32,353 nt of DNA from Candidatus Altimarinota bacterium (GTDB taxonomy: Bacteria; Patescibacteriota; Gracilibacteria; BD1-5; UBA6164). The translations under genes and the position numbers were made by a program. The notes beneath the pieces are model-generated. The model worked only from the letters and a program-made list of their open reading frames with translations, was not told the origin of the DNA and made no database searches. Positions 434-31,781 of this stretch are shown piece by piece. The stretch lies in NCBI GenBank assembly GCA_027066455.1, contig JAMONT010000057.1, positions 1-32,353 of the forward strand, given 5' to 3'. The first letter of the stretch is position 1. Every line of letters begins with the position of its first letter.

Positions 434-1639
434 ATGCAAAAATACAAAACATTTATAATTTTTATAATCCTAACAGCCATTTGGAGTAGTTTATTTTCTA
501 CAATAAAATATTTTTTTTGGTGAGATTTGAGTAATTGAATTGCTCCAGATTTACAAGTTTTATCTGGATATTTGAGTTTATGAGGAATTTTGGCTTACCT
601 TTTAGGCTGAGCTTTGGCCTATACTTTTTTGAAAAAATATTTACTTTTTTCTTTTTCTTTTTTGACTCTTATTTTTGTAATTATTGCTTATTTTTTTCCT
701 ATAAATTCTACATTTAGTTTAGCTTTTATAATTTCTGGAATTTGATTTTTTTATTGATTATGGGTAGTTCTTAGAAGTATTTTAGTTTCAATTGAAATAC
801 AAAAAACCTGACTTGAAGATACAAAAATAAATGGAATAATTTCAATTGTTTTTATAGTTTTTTTAATAATTTGAACAATTGTTTGAAGTAAAATTTTTGA
901 AATTTTTTGACATGAATGATTTTTAATAATTATTTTTTTACTTATTATCTCTAGTATTGTTTCACTTTTTTTAGATTATGATAATATTTCTTTAAAAGAT
1001 TTATTTAAAAATGGTTTTAAAAGTTATAAATTAGAAAGAACTCATAAATTGAAAGTTGCTCTGAAAAATTATTTTCCAGAATTAAAATATATTTTCAAAA
1101 ATTTTTCTTTTATAATTATTTTTTCAAGTATTATCTGGTCAGTTTCAACAGTAGTTTCTCAAAAGGCTGTAGAATATAGTGTTGAAACTTTTCAAAAATT
1201 ACCTAGTCAAGCAGCTTATTTGCTTTTATACTCTAGTATTTGAGCAATTTTGTGAAATATTATTTCAAGTTTTTTAGGAAAATATAGATGGAAAAGTTTT
1301 TTTGTTTTAAATATTTTTCTTTGAATTTTAATAATAATTTTTCCATTTTTTAACCAAACATTTTTTCAAGTTTGAATAATTGCATTTTTAGTTTGATTTG
1401 TTTTTTGAAGTTCTACAAATTTAATTGATTCTTTTTATTTAAGTAAACTCTGAGAACAAGACAAAAAAGAATATGGTAGTGCAACTTATGGACTTATTTT
1501 TTCAATAATTTTGTTTGCAATAATGTTTATTTCTAGCTATATTGATAAAAATTATTGATTTGACAAATTAATGTACATTTTATGATGAGTAATTTTACTT
1601 GTAAATATTTTAAATTTTAAAAAATTTTTATGAAAATAA
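434..1639 (+). CDS. MFS-type transporter, LplT-like candidate lysophospholipid importer
   Basis: A 401-residue, strongly hydrophobic protein of about 11-12 predicted membrane spans, the size and organisation of a major facilitator superfamily carrier. It starts MQKYKTFIIF; TGA codons encode glycines throughout the membrane helices. The stop TAA (1637-1639) overlaps the ATG of the next gene (1630), so the two are translationally coupled. That neighbour is a PlsC-type acyltransferase with an acyl-carrier domain. In many bacteria an MFS flippase (LplT) is encoded with or fused to such an acyltransferase (Aas), so the likely job is to move lysophospholipid across the inner membrane for re-acylation. 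The MFS assignment rests on hydrophobicity, length and context, not on a read signature motif, and the substrate is inferred. Confidence 0.68.
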
Positions 1640-2808
1640 TAATCCTAATATACAAATTCTTTTTAAAAAGAAGATATAAGTTAGAAATAAAAAATACAGA
1701 AATTTTAAAACATAATTGACCTGTTTTACTTTTACCAAACCATGTGGCTTTAGTAGATCCACAAATTTTGATAACTTTTTTGGACAAATATCTGAACCTT
1801 TCTCCAGTAGCAAGTGAAAAATTTTTTAATGTGCCTATTTTGAAACAAATAATGACAGCCTTAGAAACAATTCCAATTTGAGAAATGGAAGCTTGAGCTG
1901 ATACTGAAAAAGTAAAAAAAGTTTTTAATGATGTAACAAAAGCATTAAAAAACTGAAAAAATATTTTGATTTATCCTTCTTGAGAAATTTATAAACAAGG
2001 TTTTGAAAGTATTATCTGAAAACAAGCTGTTTATAATATTGTAAAAAATATGCCAGAAAATACTAAAGTTGTTGGGTTGAGACAAAAATGACTTTGGTGA
2101 AGTATGTGGAGTAAGGCTTATAACTGAGGAAAAACAGGATTTTTTGCATTATTTTGAAAATGAGTTTTTTATGTTTTTGCTAATTTAATATTTTTTGTTC
2201 CAAAAAGAAAAGTAAATCTTGAATTTGAAGATATTACAAAGCAAATAAATTTGTATAAAAATATGAGTTTGTGAGAATTTAATAGTTTTTTGGAGGATTT
2301 TTTTAATACAAACCCTTTAAAAATTATCCCATCCCAACCTTCCCTTAAGCCTAAGGGAAGGAGTAATAAGTTTGAAGAAAAAGCTACTTTTGTAAAACAT
2401 TTTTGGTTTTATAATGATGTAAAAAACAAAAAAGAACCAGAAATTATAGAATGAAGTTTAAAAGATTTGAAAAATACAAAAAATCATGATTTGAGTCAGA
2501 TAGATGAAAAAATAAAAAATAAAATTATTGAAAAGATTGTGTTGATAAAAGAAATAGATAAAAAAAATATTTTAGAAAATTCAAAATTAATAGTAGATTT
2601 ATTTTTTGATAGTTTGGATTTAGCAGAAATAAAAAGTTTTGTTCAAGCTAATTTTTCTTGAAGTTCTAATACTCCAATTACTGATTTAAAAACCGTTTGA
2701 GATTTGATAATTATGGCTGTAGGACAAAGTGAAAATGTTGAAAAAATGAAAAATTGTGAATGGAAAAAATTTAATGAAAAAGGTAATTTGCTCGATAAGT
2801 TGGTTTAA
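1630..2808 (+). CDS. PlsC-type acyltransferase fused to an acyl-carrier domain
   Basis: 392 residues. The N-terminal half is a lysophospholipid/glycerol-phosphate acyltransferase: the catalytic HxxxxD motif is seen as NHVALVD (His about residue 38). A second conserved block, YPSGEIYKQG, matches the PlsC substrate-binding region (EGTR-like). A C-terminal domain of about 90 residues (roughly 300-390) resembles an acyl carrier protein; its DLFFDSLDLAEI segment puts Ser328 in the place of the phosphopantetheine-bearing serine of the D-S-L motif. The ATG overlaps the end of the MFS gene. It probably re-acylates imported lysophospholipid with an acyl chain carried by its own ACP domain; no AMP-ligase domain is present, so the source of acyl groups is unclear. 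The linker between domains contains a GC-rich palindromic repeat read in frame (2323-2367). Confidence 0.8.
2323..2367 (+). repeat. GC-rich palindromic element, type B, embedded in a coding sequence
   Basis: Core inverted repeat TTCCCTTAAG/CTAAGGGAAG, with a CCCATCCCAACC arm. It is nearly the reverse complement of the copy at 19476-19517 and related to the one at 23775-23820. Here it is translated in frame as IIPSQPSLKPKGRSN within the interdomain linker of the acyltransferase-ACP protein. Its base composition is far from the AT-rich surroundings. Confidence 0.85.
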
Positions 2809-8983: not shown

Positions 8984-9004
8984 CCCTTTTTTTTTATTTA
9001 TTTT

Positions 9005-9043
9005 TCTCCCTTTTTTAAAGGGAGTACCCGCAGGGGGAGGGAT
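9005..9043 (+). repeat. GC-rich palindromic element, type A, intergenic copy
   Basis: CTCCCTTT..AAAGGGAG hairpin followed by TACCCGCAGGGGGAGGGAT. The same sequence, with small changes, occurs twice in uvrC (22576-22614 and 23572-23611). Here it is between the terminator and the end of the opposing 187-residue gene. Confidence 0.9.
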
Positions 9044-9051
9044 TATTTTTT

Positions 9052-9615
9052 TTATAATTCCCTTTTATATTCTCATTTTCAACTAATTATCATATAAATA
9101 TCATAAAAAGATTTCAAAAATCAAACTGTTATTCAAGCTCACAATTTTATTATTTTTTCTCAAGAATTAGTAGTTCAAACAGCTATTCAAGCCAAAACTT
9201 TTCAATTTTTAGCAGATTTTATAAAATTATTAGAAAACAAATTTTTTACTATTTTCCCATCCTGCTCAGTAAAAACTTCTGAAAAATCATCTTGTTCATT
9301 TTCTTCTTTTTCACTATCTTTTATAAATTCTTCTTTAAATTTTTTCAACATATCCAAATCACTTTTTAATTCTTCTATTTTATCAGTGCTAAAATTCTCT
9401 TTTTCATTTTTTCAAATTTCTCATTTAAGCATTTCTTTGATTTCTGAACTACTTAAATTTAGTTTTAATTTCAAAAGACCTTTTACAGTACTTGATGAAA
9501 GTTCATATTTTTTTTCAATCAAATTTTTTAAAGACTTAGAAAAAGCCTCTTTTTTTAGCTCTTCTTCCCTATTATTTTTTTCCTTTTCTTCTAATTCTTT
9601 TTTAATTTGATCCAT
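9052..9615 (-). CDS. hypothetical protein with charged coiled N-terminus and Gly-rich hydrophobic C-terminus
   Basis: 187 residues. Residues 1-30 are a Lys/Glu coiled coil (MDQIKKELEEKEKN). A helical segment with two SSS-containing repeats (YELSSSTVKGLLK and LNLSSSEIKEMLK) follows, then an acidic stretch. The C-terminus is Gly-rich and amphipathic (NGKVLAGIAVGTTNSGEKIIKLGAGITVG), followed by FLKSFYDIYMIISGKG. The C-terminal part could be membrane-interacting, like a glycine-zipper segment. It lies 19 bases downstream of the TPR lipoprotein on the same strand, so it is probably co-transcribed with it. Most of the C-terminal glycines are TGA. Function unknown. Confidence 0.7.
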
Positions 9616-19448: not shown

Positions 19449-19475
19449 TTAAAAATTAAAACAAATTTTGTAGCT

Positions 19476-19517
19476 ACTCCCTTCCCTTAGACTTAAGGGA
19501 AGGGCTGGGGATGGGAT
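19476..19517 (-). repeat. GC-rich palindromic element, type B, intergenic copy
   Basis: CTTCCCTTAG/CTTAAGGGAAG hairpin plus GGGCTGGGGATGGGAT. On the minus strand it is close to the copy in the acyltransferase-ACP gene (2323-2367). It lies between the startless nucleotidyltransferase and the VirB4-like gene end. Confidence 0.85.
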
Positions 19518-19537
19518 AATTACTAAAATTCTTTCCT

Positions 19538-22009
19538 CTACTGCACACCAATTCTATATTCTATTTCTTTCCCTACAAAAGCTACATCTCTACCATATTT
19601 TAATCTTGATAATTCCTTCATTGCTTTTGCTATTTTTTCATCTCAAGTTTCTAGGTATGGATTTATTGGAATTATTGAAAATCCTCAGGTAGGTTGATTA
19701 TCCACAAAAAGATTAATTGCAGCCTTGAATTTGTCCATATTAATTAAATCTCTATCAGAAAAATTTGGAGCCATTTCTTTAGCTAAAAATTCTGCATCTT
19801 CTGGCCCAATTTTATACATCATTTTTGTTCAAACATTACCAAAAATTGCTGTTTTTAGATTAACACTTGATTTACTAAGAGAATCAGATTTCTCTAATTG
19901 TCATAAATATTGATGTCAAATATTAAGTGAAAGTCTATATTTTCTGGCTTCTGATAAAATTGATTCAATTGCATCAGTTACATAGTTTTGAAATTCATCT
20001 ATATATAAGAAAAAATCTTTTCTGTCTTTTTTAGCAATTTTATCTCTTCTCATGGCAGCCATTTGCAATTTTGAAACTAGCACCATTCAAAGAAGCTGAG
20101 AATTAATATCTCACAAACTTCATTTACTCAAATTAACAAAAAGAATTTTTTCTTCTTGCATTATTTCTCAAATATTAAAACTAGATTTTGTTTGACCAAT
20201 AATATTTCTCATTGTAGAATTCGTAATAAATTGACCAAATTTTGCAGCAAAATAAGGAATAATTTCTTGTTTTTCTCTATCTCACATTGAAGCATAAGTA
20301 TTTTCCCACCAAGATTTTACTATTGGATTACTTACATGTCTTGTTCTTTCTTTTTGCCAAGTTGGGTCAGTAAAAAGCCTTACTAAATCAGTAATTGCAG
20401 CTCAACCAGGATATTCCATCAAAGCTAAAACTCAGTTTCTAAAATAATCTTGAAGTCTAGGCCCAAAAATTTCATTACCAAAAAGTTTTATCATAATATT
20501 CAAAGCATCTTGAGCAACCAAATCCATTTCACTTTTATCTTGAATTTCAAGTAAATTAAGTCACATCGGTCTTGAAACATCTGTTGGATCAAAAAATATC
20601 AAATCATCAGCTCTTTCTCTAGGAACAAATGGCAACAAATCTTTTGCCAAATCTCCATGAGGATCTAAAACTCATATTCAGCTTCCATTAGCTAAATCTT
20701 GTCTAGCCATAACTTGCATAACTGTAGTTTTTCATGTTCAAGTTTGCCCAATTACATAAAAGTGCCTAAATCTATCTTCTGTTTTTAGTCTCACTTCCCT
20801 TTTTACTCATCTATAAATATTGTGTCAAAGCAAAATTCACTCCTTTGGAATATTTGAAGGAGCTCTAACAATTTTGAAATTTTGCCATTTTATTTCTGGA
20901 GTTTTATTATATTTTGTATGAGGAAAATGGAAAAGACTTGATAATTCTTCTACATTTAAAATAGATTTTTTGAAAAATAAAACAAGAGGTTTTTTGAAAT
21001 ATCTATAAATATAATTTTTTATTAATTTTTTATCATTATGGTATGTAGTAGAGGAAAATTTATTAAAATCTGGATATGCAAATTGAGCAAAAGCTCCTGA
21101 AATATTTTTTAATTCAGACTCTATAATTCTCAAATTATTTCAAGCTGTAATTATTCTAATAATTACTTCATAACCAGTTTTGTCAGCCTTTTCATCAACA
21201 GTTTTTGCTCTTTCTTGAGTTAAGGCACTTGTTCTATTTTCTTCACCTTTTGGACTTTCTTTATCTTCCCCATTACTTGTAAATAAGGCAAAACCCCAAG
21301 AAAATATTTTAAGCAAAAATTTGAATGGATTTAAACTCATTCAATCTTTTGTTCATTTCATTATTTCACTTGAAACTCTTGAAGTTTTTGTTTGCCAATC
21401 ATCATCAACAGGTCTCAAAAGAATTTGAATAACAGCAGATTCATCTTCTTCTAATTTTGAAATAGAATTAGTAATATTATTAATAGGATCACTTTCTAAT
21501 TTTTGGTAAGTTTTGATTGGATAAAAATAATCTCTTGATAAATAAAGTTCAGTTCAAAGTGAATATTTTTTTCCTTCAAAAATATTTTTTTCAAGAGTTT
21601 CTTCAATAATTGCATCAGGATAAAATCAATTTATCTGTTTTTCAATTAATTCTTTATATTTTTTTGGTAAAACTACATAAAAATAAATTTCATTTTTATC
21701 AGCAACATATTCAAGTGAAATCAAATCTTGACCTAAAAGTTTTGAAGAAATTGAAGAACTAGAAATACTTTTTGCTGAAGTTAAAAGTTGTTCCATTATA
21801 GAAATTTTTTCTTTGAAATCTTTTGCTGTTTCATTTTTTTCATCTTGATCAGATTCTTTTTTTGGCATTGTAACCATCAAAAAACACAAATCTAAAGTTC
21901 TTTTTTTATTTACTTTTGTTCTATATAACCACAAAATAGCCTGAACAATTACAAAAAGTAAAATTATTCAAGTTATGAAATTTAAAAGTCCTGTGACAAA
22001 TGGTGTCAT
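19538..22009 (-). CDS. VirB4/TraG-like P-loop ATPase (type IV secretion / DNA transfer family)
   Basis: 823 residues. An N-terminal membrane helix (about 6-27) is followed by a large N-terminal region to about 410. The ATPase core has Walker A GQTGTGKTT at about residues 421-429 (two of its glycines are TGA) and FFLYIDEFQNY with Walker B acidic residues Asp671/Glu672. It also has VLDPHGDLAKDLLPFVP, a conserved block of the CPR T4SS-like ATPase/TraM-recognition family, and sensor-like NIGHQYLGQL. Homologues are near-universal in CPR, often with type IV pilus or conjugation-like genes, and are thought to move DNA or proteins across the envelope; the substrate is unknown. It ends with TAG. The next gene upstream on the strand is uvrC, 155 bases away. 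Confidence 0.88.
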
Positions 22010-22164: not shown

Positions 22165-24177
22165 TTAAATAATTCAATGATTTTCCAAAATTTCTATTAC
22201 ATTTTTATTCAAAACTTTTTCCAAATCTTCTTTTTTTGTTTCTTGTAATTTTTCCACACTTCAAAAATTCTTCAAGATTTTTTTCCTAGTTTTTGGTCAA
22301 ATTTGGGGCAAACTTTCTAAAATATTTTTTTTATTTGCTTTGCTTCTAGAATCTCTATTAAAAGTTATTGCAAATCTATGAGCTTCATCTCTCAATTTTT
22401 GAATTAATCTAAGTTCCAAACTATTTTTTTCTAAAATTATTTCTTTAAAACCACCCCTGAAGTTTTCAACTTCTTTCCCCTCCTTAATAAGGAGGGGATT
22501 AAGGGGTGGGGAGATTACATACAAAATTTCCTCTTTTTTTGCTATTCAAACTAAATTTATGTTTTTCCTATATTTTCTCCCTTTTTCAAAGGGAGTACCC
22601 ACAGGGGGAGGGATTTCTTCAAAAATTTCATAAACACTACTCAACTGAGCTTTTCATCAGTCTATAATTATTAAATCTGGATAATTTTCTAATTTTTCTA
22701 ATTCCAAAATTCTTCTTTTTGCAATTTCTCTCATTGAATCAAAATCATTTATCTCTTGTTCTTTAAGGGTTTTTATTTTGAATTTTCTATATTTATTTGA
22801 ATTTATTTTTCCATTTTCAATTACACTTCTAGAAGCTACTGTATGAGTTCCAGAAAAATGACTTATATCATTACATTCAAAAATAATATCCTTGTTTATC
22901 CTTTCAAATCCCAAAAGTTCCAAAATATTTTTCATAGTCCCTTTTGTAAAATTTTTTGTAGAAAGACTTGCAATATGTTTTTTATAAGCAAATTCATACA
23001 AATTTTTATAGCACATTTTTAGTAAATCAGCTTTTACTCAAATTTTTGGAATTTCTAATTTTATTTTTTCAAAAATTTCTTCTTTTAATTTTATTTTTTT
23101 TTGAATAATAATTTTTGGAATTTTTTTATTTTTTTCTAATTCTAAAAAAGAAAGTAAAGAGGTTTTTACAAAATTTTCTAAAACTTTTTCCAAATTTTCT
23201 TCTAAATTATTTTCTATTTCATAAGGATAAAATCAAGTAATTTTAGAATCTCTAATTTCTATTTTTCAAATAAAAATTTTATCAAATTTTTCTAAATAAT
23301 TAATAATATCATAATCTCAAATAATTCATTCTCTTACAATTTGTTTTTGGTCCAAAATTTTTATAGATTCTATTTGTTTTTTCAAAATTAAAGCTCTTTC
23401 AAATTCAAGATTTTTAGCAAAAATTATCATTTTTTTTTCTAAATCTTTTATAATTTCTTTATAATTTCCTTTTAAAAAATATTTTATTTCTTCCAATTTT
23501 TCAAAATATATTTTTTTTTCCAATTCTTCTTTATTAATTTTATTTTCTTCTATTTTTTTTGTTCTTATATTTTCTCCCTTTTCAAAGGGAGTACCCGTAG
23601 GGGGAGGGATTTTTACTTGGGGTGAGGTAAATAAATATTCATCTAAATTATAATTATTTTTATTTTTAAAAAAATTATTTTTTCAAACTCAATATCCAAA
23701 AACTTTTTTTAAAACTTTCAAAATATTATCAACATCCTGAGATGAAATATATGGTCAAAAATATTCTGCTTTTGTCTCCCTTTCTCCCTTGGGGGAAAGG
23801 GCTGGGGATAGGGGGTTTTTATTCCTAACTCTAATGATTTTTGGAAATTCTTCACAAGTAATTTTTATATAAATATGATTTTTTCAATCTTTCATCAAAA
23901 TATTATATTTTGGAAGATATTTTTTTATAAGATTTGTTTCTAAAATAAGACTTTCTGTTTCATTTTCAACTAAAATATATTTTATATTTGTAATTTTTTC
24001 TAGCATTTTACTTTTAGCAAAATTTAGTTTATTTTTTGAATTAAAATATGAATTTACTCTTGAAGATAAATTAACAGATTTTCCAATATAAATAATCTCC
24101 TCTTTTTCATCAAAAAATTGATAAATTCAAGGAGATTTTGGCAAATTTTCTAGAATATTTTTTAGTTTTGCTTGCAT
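22165..24177 (-). CDS. uvrC: UvrC, excinuclease ABC subunit C, with four in-frame palindromic inserts
   Basis: 670 residues against about 600 usual for UvrC. It makes the 3' and 5' cuts of nucleotide excision repair with UvrA and UvrB. The GIY-YIG nuclease is at the start (SPGIYQFF, residues 15-22; YIGKS from 30). AEYFGPYIS follows near 140. A UVR helix pair (residues about 220-260) has ERALILKKQIESIKIL. The C-terminal RNase H-like nuclease has CNDISHFSGTHTVASRSV and DGGKAQ near 502. LRDEAHRFAITFNRDSR and a helix-hairpin-helix end (LPQIGPKTRKKILKNFGS) complete it. Extra sequence relative to the family lies at about 120-134, 189-202, 522-534 and 555-576; all four correspond to GC-rich palindromic elements. 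Catalytic motifs are intact, so it is probably functional. Confidence 0.96.
22449..22515 (-). repeat. GC-rich palindromic element inside uvrC (longest copy)
   Basis: Outer arms ACCACCCCT/AGGGGTGGGG and an inner palindrome CCCCTCCTTAATAAGGAGGGG. Translated in frame as VISPPLNPLLIKEGKEVEN, then FRGGF, between the YV strand of the nuclease domain and SLELRLIQKLRDEAHRFA. Confidence 0.88.
22576..22614 (-). repeat. GC-rich palindromic element, type A, inside uvrC (C-terminal half)
   Basis: Read on the coding strand it gives EIPPPVGTPFEKGRKY in frame. It differs at few positions from the copy at 23572-23611 and the intergenic copy at 9005-9043. Insert follows the SVYEIF helix next to DGGKAQ. Confidence 0.9.
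23572..23611 (-). repeat. GC-rich palindromic element, type A, inside uvrC (linker before the UVR domain)
   Basis: Translated in frame as KIPPPTGTPFEKGENI, the same phase as the second type A copy in this gene. Both share the flanking TATATTTTCTCCCTTTT on the plus strand, which suggests a wider element than the GC-rich core. Confidence 0.9.
23775..23820 (-). repeat. GC-rich palindromic element, type B variant, inside uvrC (N-terminal half)
   Basis: CTCCCTTTCTCCCTTGGGGGAAAGGG hairpin plus GGGGATAGGGGG. Translated in frame as KNPLSPALSPKGERET between IIRVRN and the conserved AEYFGPY block. The same phase is used by the type B copy in the acyltransferase-ACP gene. Confidence 0.85.
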
Positions 24178-29689: not shown

Positions 29690-30154
29690 ATGATAAAGAA
29701 CAAAAAAGCTGAAACACTTTTCACAATTGTGATAGGAATGGTAATTCTTTCTTTTATTATTACTGCTTTAACAACAATAATAATTGATTCAAGAAATGAA
29801 CAAAACACTTTTAATGATTCTAGATTATTAACTATTTTAAAAAATAATACTTCTAATATTGCTACAAAACTAAGTACTGATAATATTTCAGAAAATAGTA
29901 TTTTTTATATATATAAAGATAAATTAGCAAAAGAATTCTTAATATTTACTTGAAGTAGTAACCCTGCTGACCCAAGTTATGAAAATTATAAATATAAATA
30001 TATAGACCAATATTGAGAAAAAATTGATTTAGATACTTTTGATTGAAAGGCATATCAAAGACTTTTATGGTTAGAAAGAGAAGATACTTCTATTGATTGA
30101 ACAAAAAATCAAGTAATAAAAGCAGTTGTTAAAAGATTAATTGAAAAAAATTAA
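29690..30154 (+). CDS. pilin-like exported protein
   Basis: 154 residues: a short charged leader MIKNKKAE, then a hydrophobic helix LFTIVIGMVILSFIITALTTIII, then a soluble part (DSRNEQNTFNDSRLLTILKN, GSSNPADPSYENYKYKYIDQYGEK). The leader and helix fit a minor pilin or pseudopilin although the canonical GFTxxE is replaced by AETLFT. Together with the two genes on the other side of the divergent region it completes a set of three minor-pilin-like proteins, as in PilV/PilW/PilX clusters. The mature part is shorter than the main pilin. Confidence 0.7.
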
Positions 30155-30157
30155 TTC

Positions 30158-30217
30158 CCCAGAAAACCCCTCTCTCTTGTATTCTCTCCCTTTCAGGGAG
30201 AAAGAGGCTGCAAGAAG
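30158..30217 (+). repeat. GC-rich palindromic element between pilin-like gene and flippase
   Basis: TCTCCCTTTCAGGGAGA hairpin preceded by CCCCAGAAAACCCCTCTCTC and followed by AAGAGGCTGCAAG. It shares CCTCTCTC and GGCTGCAA with the element after uvrC (22118-22148). It may also act on transcription of the flippase gene. Confidence 0.75.
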
Positions 30218-30245: not shown

Positions 30246-31781
30246 ATGATAGACCAACACAAAACTTTGGCTGAAAAATTTTTGAAAAAATGATTTTGGC
30301 TTTACCTTTTTTCCTTTATTATAGCTCCTATTTGATATATAATAAAAATAATTATTTCTGGAAATATAAGTGTTTCTGAACTTTGAATTTTGTATTGAAT
30401 AATAAGTTTAGTAACTTTACTTTCAAGTTTTAATGATTTTTGAATGACTGAAAGTTTGCTTCATTTTTTACCAAAATATATAACAGAAAAAAAATATAAT
30501 TATGTAAAAAGTTTGCTTGTTTATGCTTTTTTAGCTCAAACTATAACTTGAATATTAATTGCTAGTTTTTTCTTTTTTTGAGCTGATTATATAGCTTTGA
30601 ATTATTTTAAATCAAATGATGCTATAATTTCTTTAAAAATATTTGCAATTTTCTTTTTATGAATAAATATTTTTCAAATTATTTCTACTTTTTTTATGGC
30701 AATTCAAGATACTTTTTTAAATAAAATAATAGATTTATTAAGAATGTGATTTGTTTTAATTTCAGTTTTAGCAATATTTTTTCTTGATTTATCAAGTTTG
30801 GTTAATTTTTCTTATTCTCGGCTTATTTGATTATATTTCTGAATTTTATTTGCAATAATGTTTTTCTATAAAAATTATTATTCTAAATATCTAAAAAATG
30901 AAAAAATTATTTGGAGCAAAGAGTTTTTTAAAAAAATATTTTCTTATGCAATTTTAGTATTTATTTGAGCTCAAGCTGCAACTATTTTAGGACAAATGGA
31001 TATGCAAATGATTATTTATTTACTTTGAACAACAGATGCTGGTTATTATACAAATTATCTTTCAATTATTGCAATTCCCTTTATGATAATTTGACCAATT
31101 TTTGCTTTACTTTTTCCTATATTTTCTGAAATGTATGCCAAAAAAGATTTTGAAAAAATAAAATTAGTAAAAACTACTTTTGTTAATAATTTTTCAGCAA
31201 TTGCAATAGCTTTTAATTTTTTATTTTTTGTTTTTTGACCAATAATTGCTTATATTTTATTTTGAGAAAAATATATTTTTTCAGGAGAAATTCTCAGATA
31301 TGCTATCTTATTTTTAGTTTTTAATTTTTTATTACAAATTAATTTTAGTATTTTAGCTTGAGTTTGAAGAGTTATTGAAAGAGTAAAAATTATTTCTATT
31401 GCTTTAGTTTTTAATTTTTTTCTAAATTTAATTTTAATAAATTGACTTGATATAATTTGATTTGAATGAATTTGAGTTGCTTGAGCAGCTCTTGCAACTT
31501 GAATTGGTTGGATTTTAATTTATTTACTTAGTGAATTATTTTTATGAAAAAAATATTTTGTAAAAATTGATTATAAATTTTTATCAAAAAATATTTTTTT
31601 AATGTGATTTTTATGATTATTTTTTTATAAATTTTTAATTCCTATATTTGATTGAGTTGGAAGATTAACCAGTTTTTGAATAATGTTTTTAATTTGAATA
31701 ATTTGGTTTGTAATATTTTTTGCAATAAATTATAAAGAATTTAGATGATTTTTTAATCAAATTAAAAATTTTAGAAAATAA
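30246..31781 (+). CDS. polysaccharide/lipid flippase (Wzx/MATE-MurJ superfamily)
   Basis: 511 residues with about 14 hydrophobic spans, the typical size of Wzx/MVF-type flippases. Landmarks are IIAPIGYIIKIIISGNISVSELGILYGI at the start, NDFGMTESLLHFLPKYITEKKY, a motif common to the polysaccharide-synthesis family (GLxxxLxRFLPxY), and GQMDMQMIIYLLGTTDAGYYTNY, also typical (D..ILGxxxGxYxxA). A central FPIFSEMYAKKDFEKIK loop follows. Most Gly codons are TGA. It would move lipid-linked glycans across the cell membrane. It follows a GC-rich palindrome. Confidence 0.88.

Follow-up and report, generated by a model that had tools for sequence, protein, structure and literature searches.

The stretch of DNA analysed here (the window) comprises 32,353 nucleotides of Candidatus Altimarinota bacterium, has a G+C content of 20%, and contains genes whose reading frames stay open only under code 25, in which TGA means glycine and which is the code of Gracilibacteria and SR1/Absconditabacteria. 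The genome assembly to which it belongs consists of 1.489 Mb in 102 contigs and is 97.66% complete. Near the beginning of the window, an ORF for a PlsC-type acyltransferase contains a palindrome of 45 bases that is translated in frame under code 25, as the first-pass annotation had proposed, and a uvrC gene further along contains four palindromic elements (table 1). Copies of types A, B, and E also occur outside ORFs; the type E-like copy (30166–30208) has a shortened arm and was left out of the 76 typed E elements described below.

Table 1. Coordinates of the palindromic elements in the window and of the two ORFs that contain them
Feature	Coordinates	Strand	Description
Host ORF, PlsC-type acyltransferase	1630..2808	+	392 aa, code 25; PF01553
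Type B palindromic element	2323..2367	+	translated IIPSQPSLKPKGRSN inside the acyltransferase ORF
Hairpin of the type B element	2338..2361	+	10-bp arms, 4-nt loop; exact pairing
Type A element, non-coding	9004..9044	-	directly behind the stop of ORF 9052-9615 (-)
Type B element, non-coding	19474..19519	-	~20 nt after the stop of ORF 19538-22009 (-)
Host ORF, UvrC	22165..24177	-	670 aa, code 25, four elements; UvrC domains (Pfam)
Type C element in uvrC	22473..22504	-	read PLNPLLIKEGKE
Type A element in uvrC	22575..22615	-	read EIPPPVGTPFEKGRK
Type A element in uvrC	23572..23611	-	read KIPPPTGTPFEKGEN
Type D element in uvrC	23776..23815	-	read NPLSPALSPKGERE; 39-nt insertion relative to five homologues
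Type E-like element, non-coding	30166..30208	+	between ORFs 29690-30154 and 30246-31781

Pfam assigns residues 18–123 of the first ORF product to the acyltransferase domain. The element had been placed in an acyltransferase–ACP linker; the acyltransferase half of this description holds, the ACP half has no Pfam match (E ≤ 0.001), and a DSL-like motif close to the C terminus no more than hints at an ACP. The hairpin of this copy, whose core is CCCTTAAGCCTAAGGG (type B), has a predicted folding energy of −9.8 kcal/mol (z −4.5), and its 24-base pattern matches the window twice (2338–2361 and a relative at 19480–19503), where chance predicts no match. The element peptide is absent from all six acyltransferase homologues compared (42–61% identical). 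At the DNA level the insert is a block of 57 nt that is missing in five homologues, with L191 carrying some other sequence nearby, and it is located between two stretches that are conserved among the homologues.

The type D element of uvrC (core CCCTTTCCCCCAAGGGAGAAAGGG) is likewise an insertion, of exactly 39 nt by DNA comparison; this length and the 57 nt of the acyltransferase block are both multiples of 3. Eight of ten UvrC homologues have nothing at this site and the other two, L198 and L209, have other sequence there. Extra sequence different from the elements is also found near the loops used here in the UvrC homologues L198, L199, L209, and L211 of related bacteria, and because some homologues carry such sequence, the UvrC loops seem to have been lengthened repeatedly in the family and to be repeated insertion sites. 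In a structure model of UvrC (mean pLDDT 73, pTM 0.38), three of four low-pLDDT segments coincide with inserts, a weak result since the alignment lacks the inserts, which alone could cause low pLDDT. The uvrC and acyltransferase copies had been considered one subtype read in the same phase. The phase is the same if the copies are aligned on TCC at the left and AAG GGA at the right, but the subtypes differ (D and B, respectively), and the agreement proves nothing alone given that each copy has several open frames.

The elements are about 40–50 nt long and are repeated throughout the genome. The type B core has 24 copies and its reversed control none, a generic tag-plus-hairpin pattern gives 142 matches versus two for the reversed pattern, and the arms of types E and D give 96 and 29 matches, the reversed control of the E pattern being uninformative because it is itself nearly palindromic. 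We typed 169 elements into six types (A 21, B 22, C 2, D 27, E 76, and F 21). Edge and orientation filters left 22 of the 24 B copies and 27 of the 29 D matches; the 76 E elements are among the matches listed, some of the others being too near contig ends, and at least two of the F copies run opposite to the canonical sense. By a strict rule that calls for an ORF of at least 60 nt before and at least 45 nt after the element, 93 of the 169 are in-frame coding copies (A 5, B 8, C 2, D 26, E 34, and F 18); types F and C come only from loci retrieved in the search for other types, and their coding fractions therefore do not describe the whole genome. A pair of stem positions in type E covaries, with 42 copies reading CC-G, 33 TT-A, and one TT-G.

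The coding copies fall in 58 host-gene clusters (68 host ORF references before single genes seen through several loci were merged), 20 of which contain more than one element. A Pfam family was found for 28 of the 30 host ORFs searched, and these, named partly from sets of domains, include Mfd (six elements), RecG, PriA, a UvrD-like helicase, MutL, DnaE, DnaX, ValRS, an IleRS-like ORF, FtsJ, HtpG, LepA, an ABC-F-like protein, a chorismate-binding enzyme, RNase HII/QueH, and macroglobulins. The RecG-like (L077) and PriA-like (L093) ORFs each have, besides two palindromic elements, a DUF559 domain that lies within or ahead of the helicase part, the N-terminal part of the IleRS-like ORF (L251) has further matches to histidine phosphatase and GNAT acetyltransferase domains, and an ORF with a lamin tail domain contains four E copies while another contains two in tandem (L109, L103).

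The first-pass annotation had raised phase conservation from two copies only, and a genome-wide check of phase enrichment finds it in types E and D. Type E is read in one phase in 32 of its 34 coding copies, giving xLSPESSLPxxEKGATK or an LEFS variant; in the two exceptions the left arm reads PLSGILSP and a shifted loop length restores the right arm to EKEAT. In type D, 17 of 21 sense copies have the left CTATC in the same frame; a further five coding copies were called antisense, including one whose short ORF (L096) may be no gene. Forty sense-read coding copies retain the right end, GCT ACA (or GCA), and all of them have it in the same frame (E 32, D 3, F 3, and B 2); in two further F copies it is retained on the opposite strand. 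The small types A and B are weaker and have no clear single phase by themselves: the hairpin phases of the eight B coding copies are divided 5, 2, and 1, and the five A coding copies use two phases (three sense and two antisense). The idea that only one phase is open fails, as on average 4.9 of six frames are open per E coding copy and 4.7 per D copy; nor do E and D use all open phases equally. For type E the observed phase has P = 6e-20 under equal use of the open frames and P = 4e-14 against the highest expectation from target preference (0.32), and it persists with higher classifier thresholds (29/31 and 26/27). Because the commonest type, E, keeps almost always to one frame though others are open, the encoded content seems to decide where the repeat survives.

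Several properties of the encoded peptide were compared among the open frames. The used frame is the most disorder-prone one in 53 of the 93 coding copies versus 20.9 expected, it has the best codon score in 50 of 93 (mostly E), and hydropathy is ruled out as the rule for the used phase, with no effect at 22 of 93 versus 20.9 expected; in all three counts the copies of one type are not independent, and the scales used were KD and TOP-IDP. By type, the used frame ranks first for disorder in 25/34 E, 6/8 B, 11/18 F, and 7/26 D copies (6.0 expected for D); disorder propensity therefore accords with the phase in use for E, B, and F, and D does not follow it. The more polar SPESS subtype of E has 27 coding and 15 non-coding copies, versus 7 and 27 for LEFS (Fisher p = 2e-4). 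Such strictness would not follow from simple tolerance, because PLSPALSPQG, accepted in type D, resembles PLSGILSP, rejected in type E. The earlier suggestion of selection for a tolerable ORF fits the phase bias of E and D and is weaker for A and B.

Orientation extends beyond the ORFs. Among the 42 non-coding E copies, 36 are co-oriented behind the upstream gene, whose stop codon precedes the element by a median of 9 nt, two are opposed, and four could not be called. This bias cannot come from an ORF filter. Relative to the frame of the upstream gene these copies are divided 15, 14, and 7, with no clear lock. The 26 E-like copies in related genomes include 24 non-coding ones, whose orientations divide 9 to 8 with seven lacking a call, although the coding score was trained on this window and may perform worse in relatives. 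The two coding copies look orthologous and again end in EKEAT. Because the E-like copies in relatives are mostly non-coding and of unbiased orientation, the in-gene expansion seems particular to this genome.

We consider it probable that these elements are GTAG-tagged, REP-like mobile palindromes filtered by translation, comparable to the Rickettsia palindromic elements (RPE). In our proposal, a superfamily of such palindromes of about 40–50 nt would have spread through an AT-rich UGA = Gly genome, probably once mobilized by a single-strand (HUH-like) transposase. Copies lie in A-rich surroundings and mostly in the transcribed sense, and they are found either right behind stop codons or inside ORFs. 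Inside ORFs, translation would act as a filter, so that only frame-keeping added lengths persist, in protein loops, and the persisting phase would give one specific peptide, free of stops and enriched in Pro, Ser, Glu, Lys, and Gly. We infer that the filter is purifying selection on this peptide. In this way the lineages may in effect have turned into palindromes that code for protein, each main type having its preferred phase.

The phase might instead be set at insertion, by machinery that prefers a target or strand state such as the displaced non-template strand or a codon-periodic A-rich motif. Consistent with this, the orientation is common to coding and non-coding E copies, the right flank is A in 77–92% at three positions in both, a target model built from the non-coding flanks already predicts about 75% sense insertions (a sense bias of 75–82%), the right-end frame is identical in 40 of 40 copies across four types, and 69% of AAAAAAG runs in ORFs are at a codon boundary. 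However, the same target model gives the used phase in just 22–32%, AAA and AAAA runs are about equally frequent in all three phases, and 69% per copy cannot yield 40 of 40 (4e-7). On these figures we reject flanking-sequence preference as the cause of the phase and regard phase setting at insertion in general as unlikely.

The inserts could also be beneficial, with the peptide (as a linker or tag) or an mRNA hairpin used by the cell and kept by positive selection. The same peptide does occur in mostly unrelated hosts, the stem covaries, copies stand right behind stop codons, and repair genes are hit (Mfd six times and UvrC four times), which echoes the repair-gene bias among the intragenic examples given in PMC3733652. 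The hosts are nevertheless without an evident common function, their homologues do without the inserts, and the loop residues of the peptide vary freely, so that we judge a cellular benefit to be rather unlikely. Mobility itself may be coupled to gene sense and codon phase, with the right end closing on a codon boundary in the coding strand; this we hold to be improbable, but if true it would describe a mobile element whose insertion is translatable by design.

Ancestry or ascertainment, in the form of duplicated host genes or a classifier that favours the phase, is largely refuted and very improbable. One host pair (L154 and L173) is 98% alike and some hosts contain several copies, but hosts are otherwise mostly unrelated and the used phase of E is kept in 25 of 27 copies when one copy per host-gene cluster is counted, which excludes host paralogy. 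Classifier bias is rejected as well: from 1500 simulated random insertions of real E copies, the same classifier made 1189 coding calls spread over all six phases, 247 of them in the used phase. Mitochondrial byps are hairpins skipped by the ribosome, and the GC-rich hairpins within AT-rich genes seen here might be skipped similarly, with the peptide never made, but this is scarcely credible since skipped elements need neither frame nor freedom from stops and the coding copies have both, type E being phase-locked.

GTAG-tagged REPs are associated with Y1 (RAYT) transposase genes (PF01797). None was found in this genome (97.66% complete); 17 of the 48 family genomes searched have the family, and none of the elements lies beside the Y1 gene at the 11 Y1 loci examined in relatives. 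Because the own genome shows no Y1 gene and the Y1 loci of relatives lack the elements, mobilization is something that we infer. Flank profiles have no evident target-site duplication, which together with terminal inverted repeats characterizes MITEs, and the exact empty site was not resolved for type E. The Y1 genes L120, L121, L122, L123, and L188, from five related genomes and without these elements beside them, have a PNHFH motif and are RAYT-like.

Protein-coding palindromes are best known from Rickettsia, and the elements described here would be a second, unrelated case, with 93 coding copies in one genome and the commonest type in one phase. Such a case makes it testable whether repeats survive in genes via chance tolerance, a peptide tuned to be harmless, or biased insertion, and the enzymes that carry the inserts, some of them several, include those of repair and replication (UvrC, Mfd, RecG, PriA, MutL, and DnaE). 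As portrayed in the portions of the RPE literature that deal with hosts and peptides, RPE are palindromic repeats in frame in unrelated protein genes, DnaE among them, with a conserved peptide per family at solvent-exposed sites (PMC10969869, PMC2229807, PMC3767692). The elements here are also in frame in unrelated protein genes, with DnaE again a host, and have a conserved peptide in E (32/34) and D (17/21 sense) and, more weakly, in A and B. They differ from RPE as characterized in those portions in length (about 40–50 nt versus about 105–150), in a host that is neither Rickettsia nor Wolbachia and reads UGA as Gly, and in a GTAG-like tag.

GTAG REPs are described, in the passages of PMC3733652 on their structure and location, as short palindromes with an unpaired GTAG end and many copies, often just behind the 3′ ends of ORFs; most are intergenic, and the intragenic ones listed are in uvrA, uvrB, recB, and other repair genes. 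Our elements resemble those described there as short multicopy palindromes with a stem and a small loop, and type E ends in CTACA in the sense direction, which is GTAG on the other strand. The GTAG end (GCTACA or a near form) is present in 32/34 E, 2/8 B, 3/26 D, 5/18 F, 0/5 A, and 0/2 C coding copies. The differences are that 93 of 169 typed copies are coding here, whereas the passages of PMC3733652 on location give mostly intergenic REPs and no phase rule, that no Y1 gene was found in this genome, and that many D and A copies are without the GTAG end. REPIN/RAYT systems share REP-like hairpins and some adjoining inverted copies but differ in that no Y1 transposase was found here. A literature search found no paper linking such repeats to this group. 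The elements are best filed among the protein-coding palindromes, as a form that works like RPE except in length and host and resembles GTAG REPs without the transposase partner.

Type B also occurs in two further arrangements. On contigs C29, C67, and C93, B copies form pairs in opposite orientation, 56–85 nt apart, like REP dimers. Two B copies that are not among the coding counts, L006 (G000:C25:8538) and L021/L004 (G000:C17:9482), occupy the N-terminal end of type IV pilin-like ORFs just ahead of FTLVEL, within the leader peptide that prepilin peptidase would remove.
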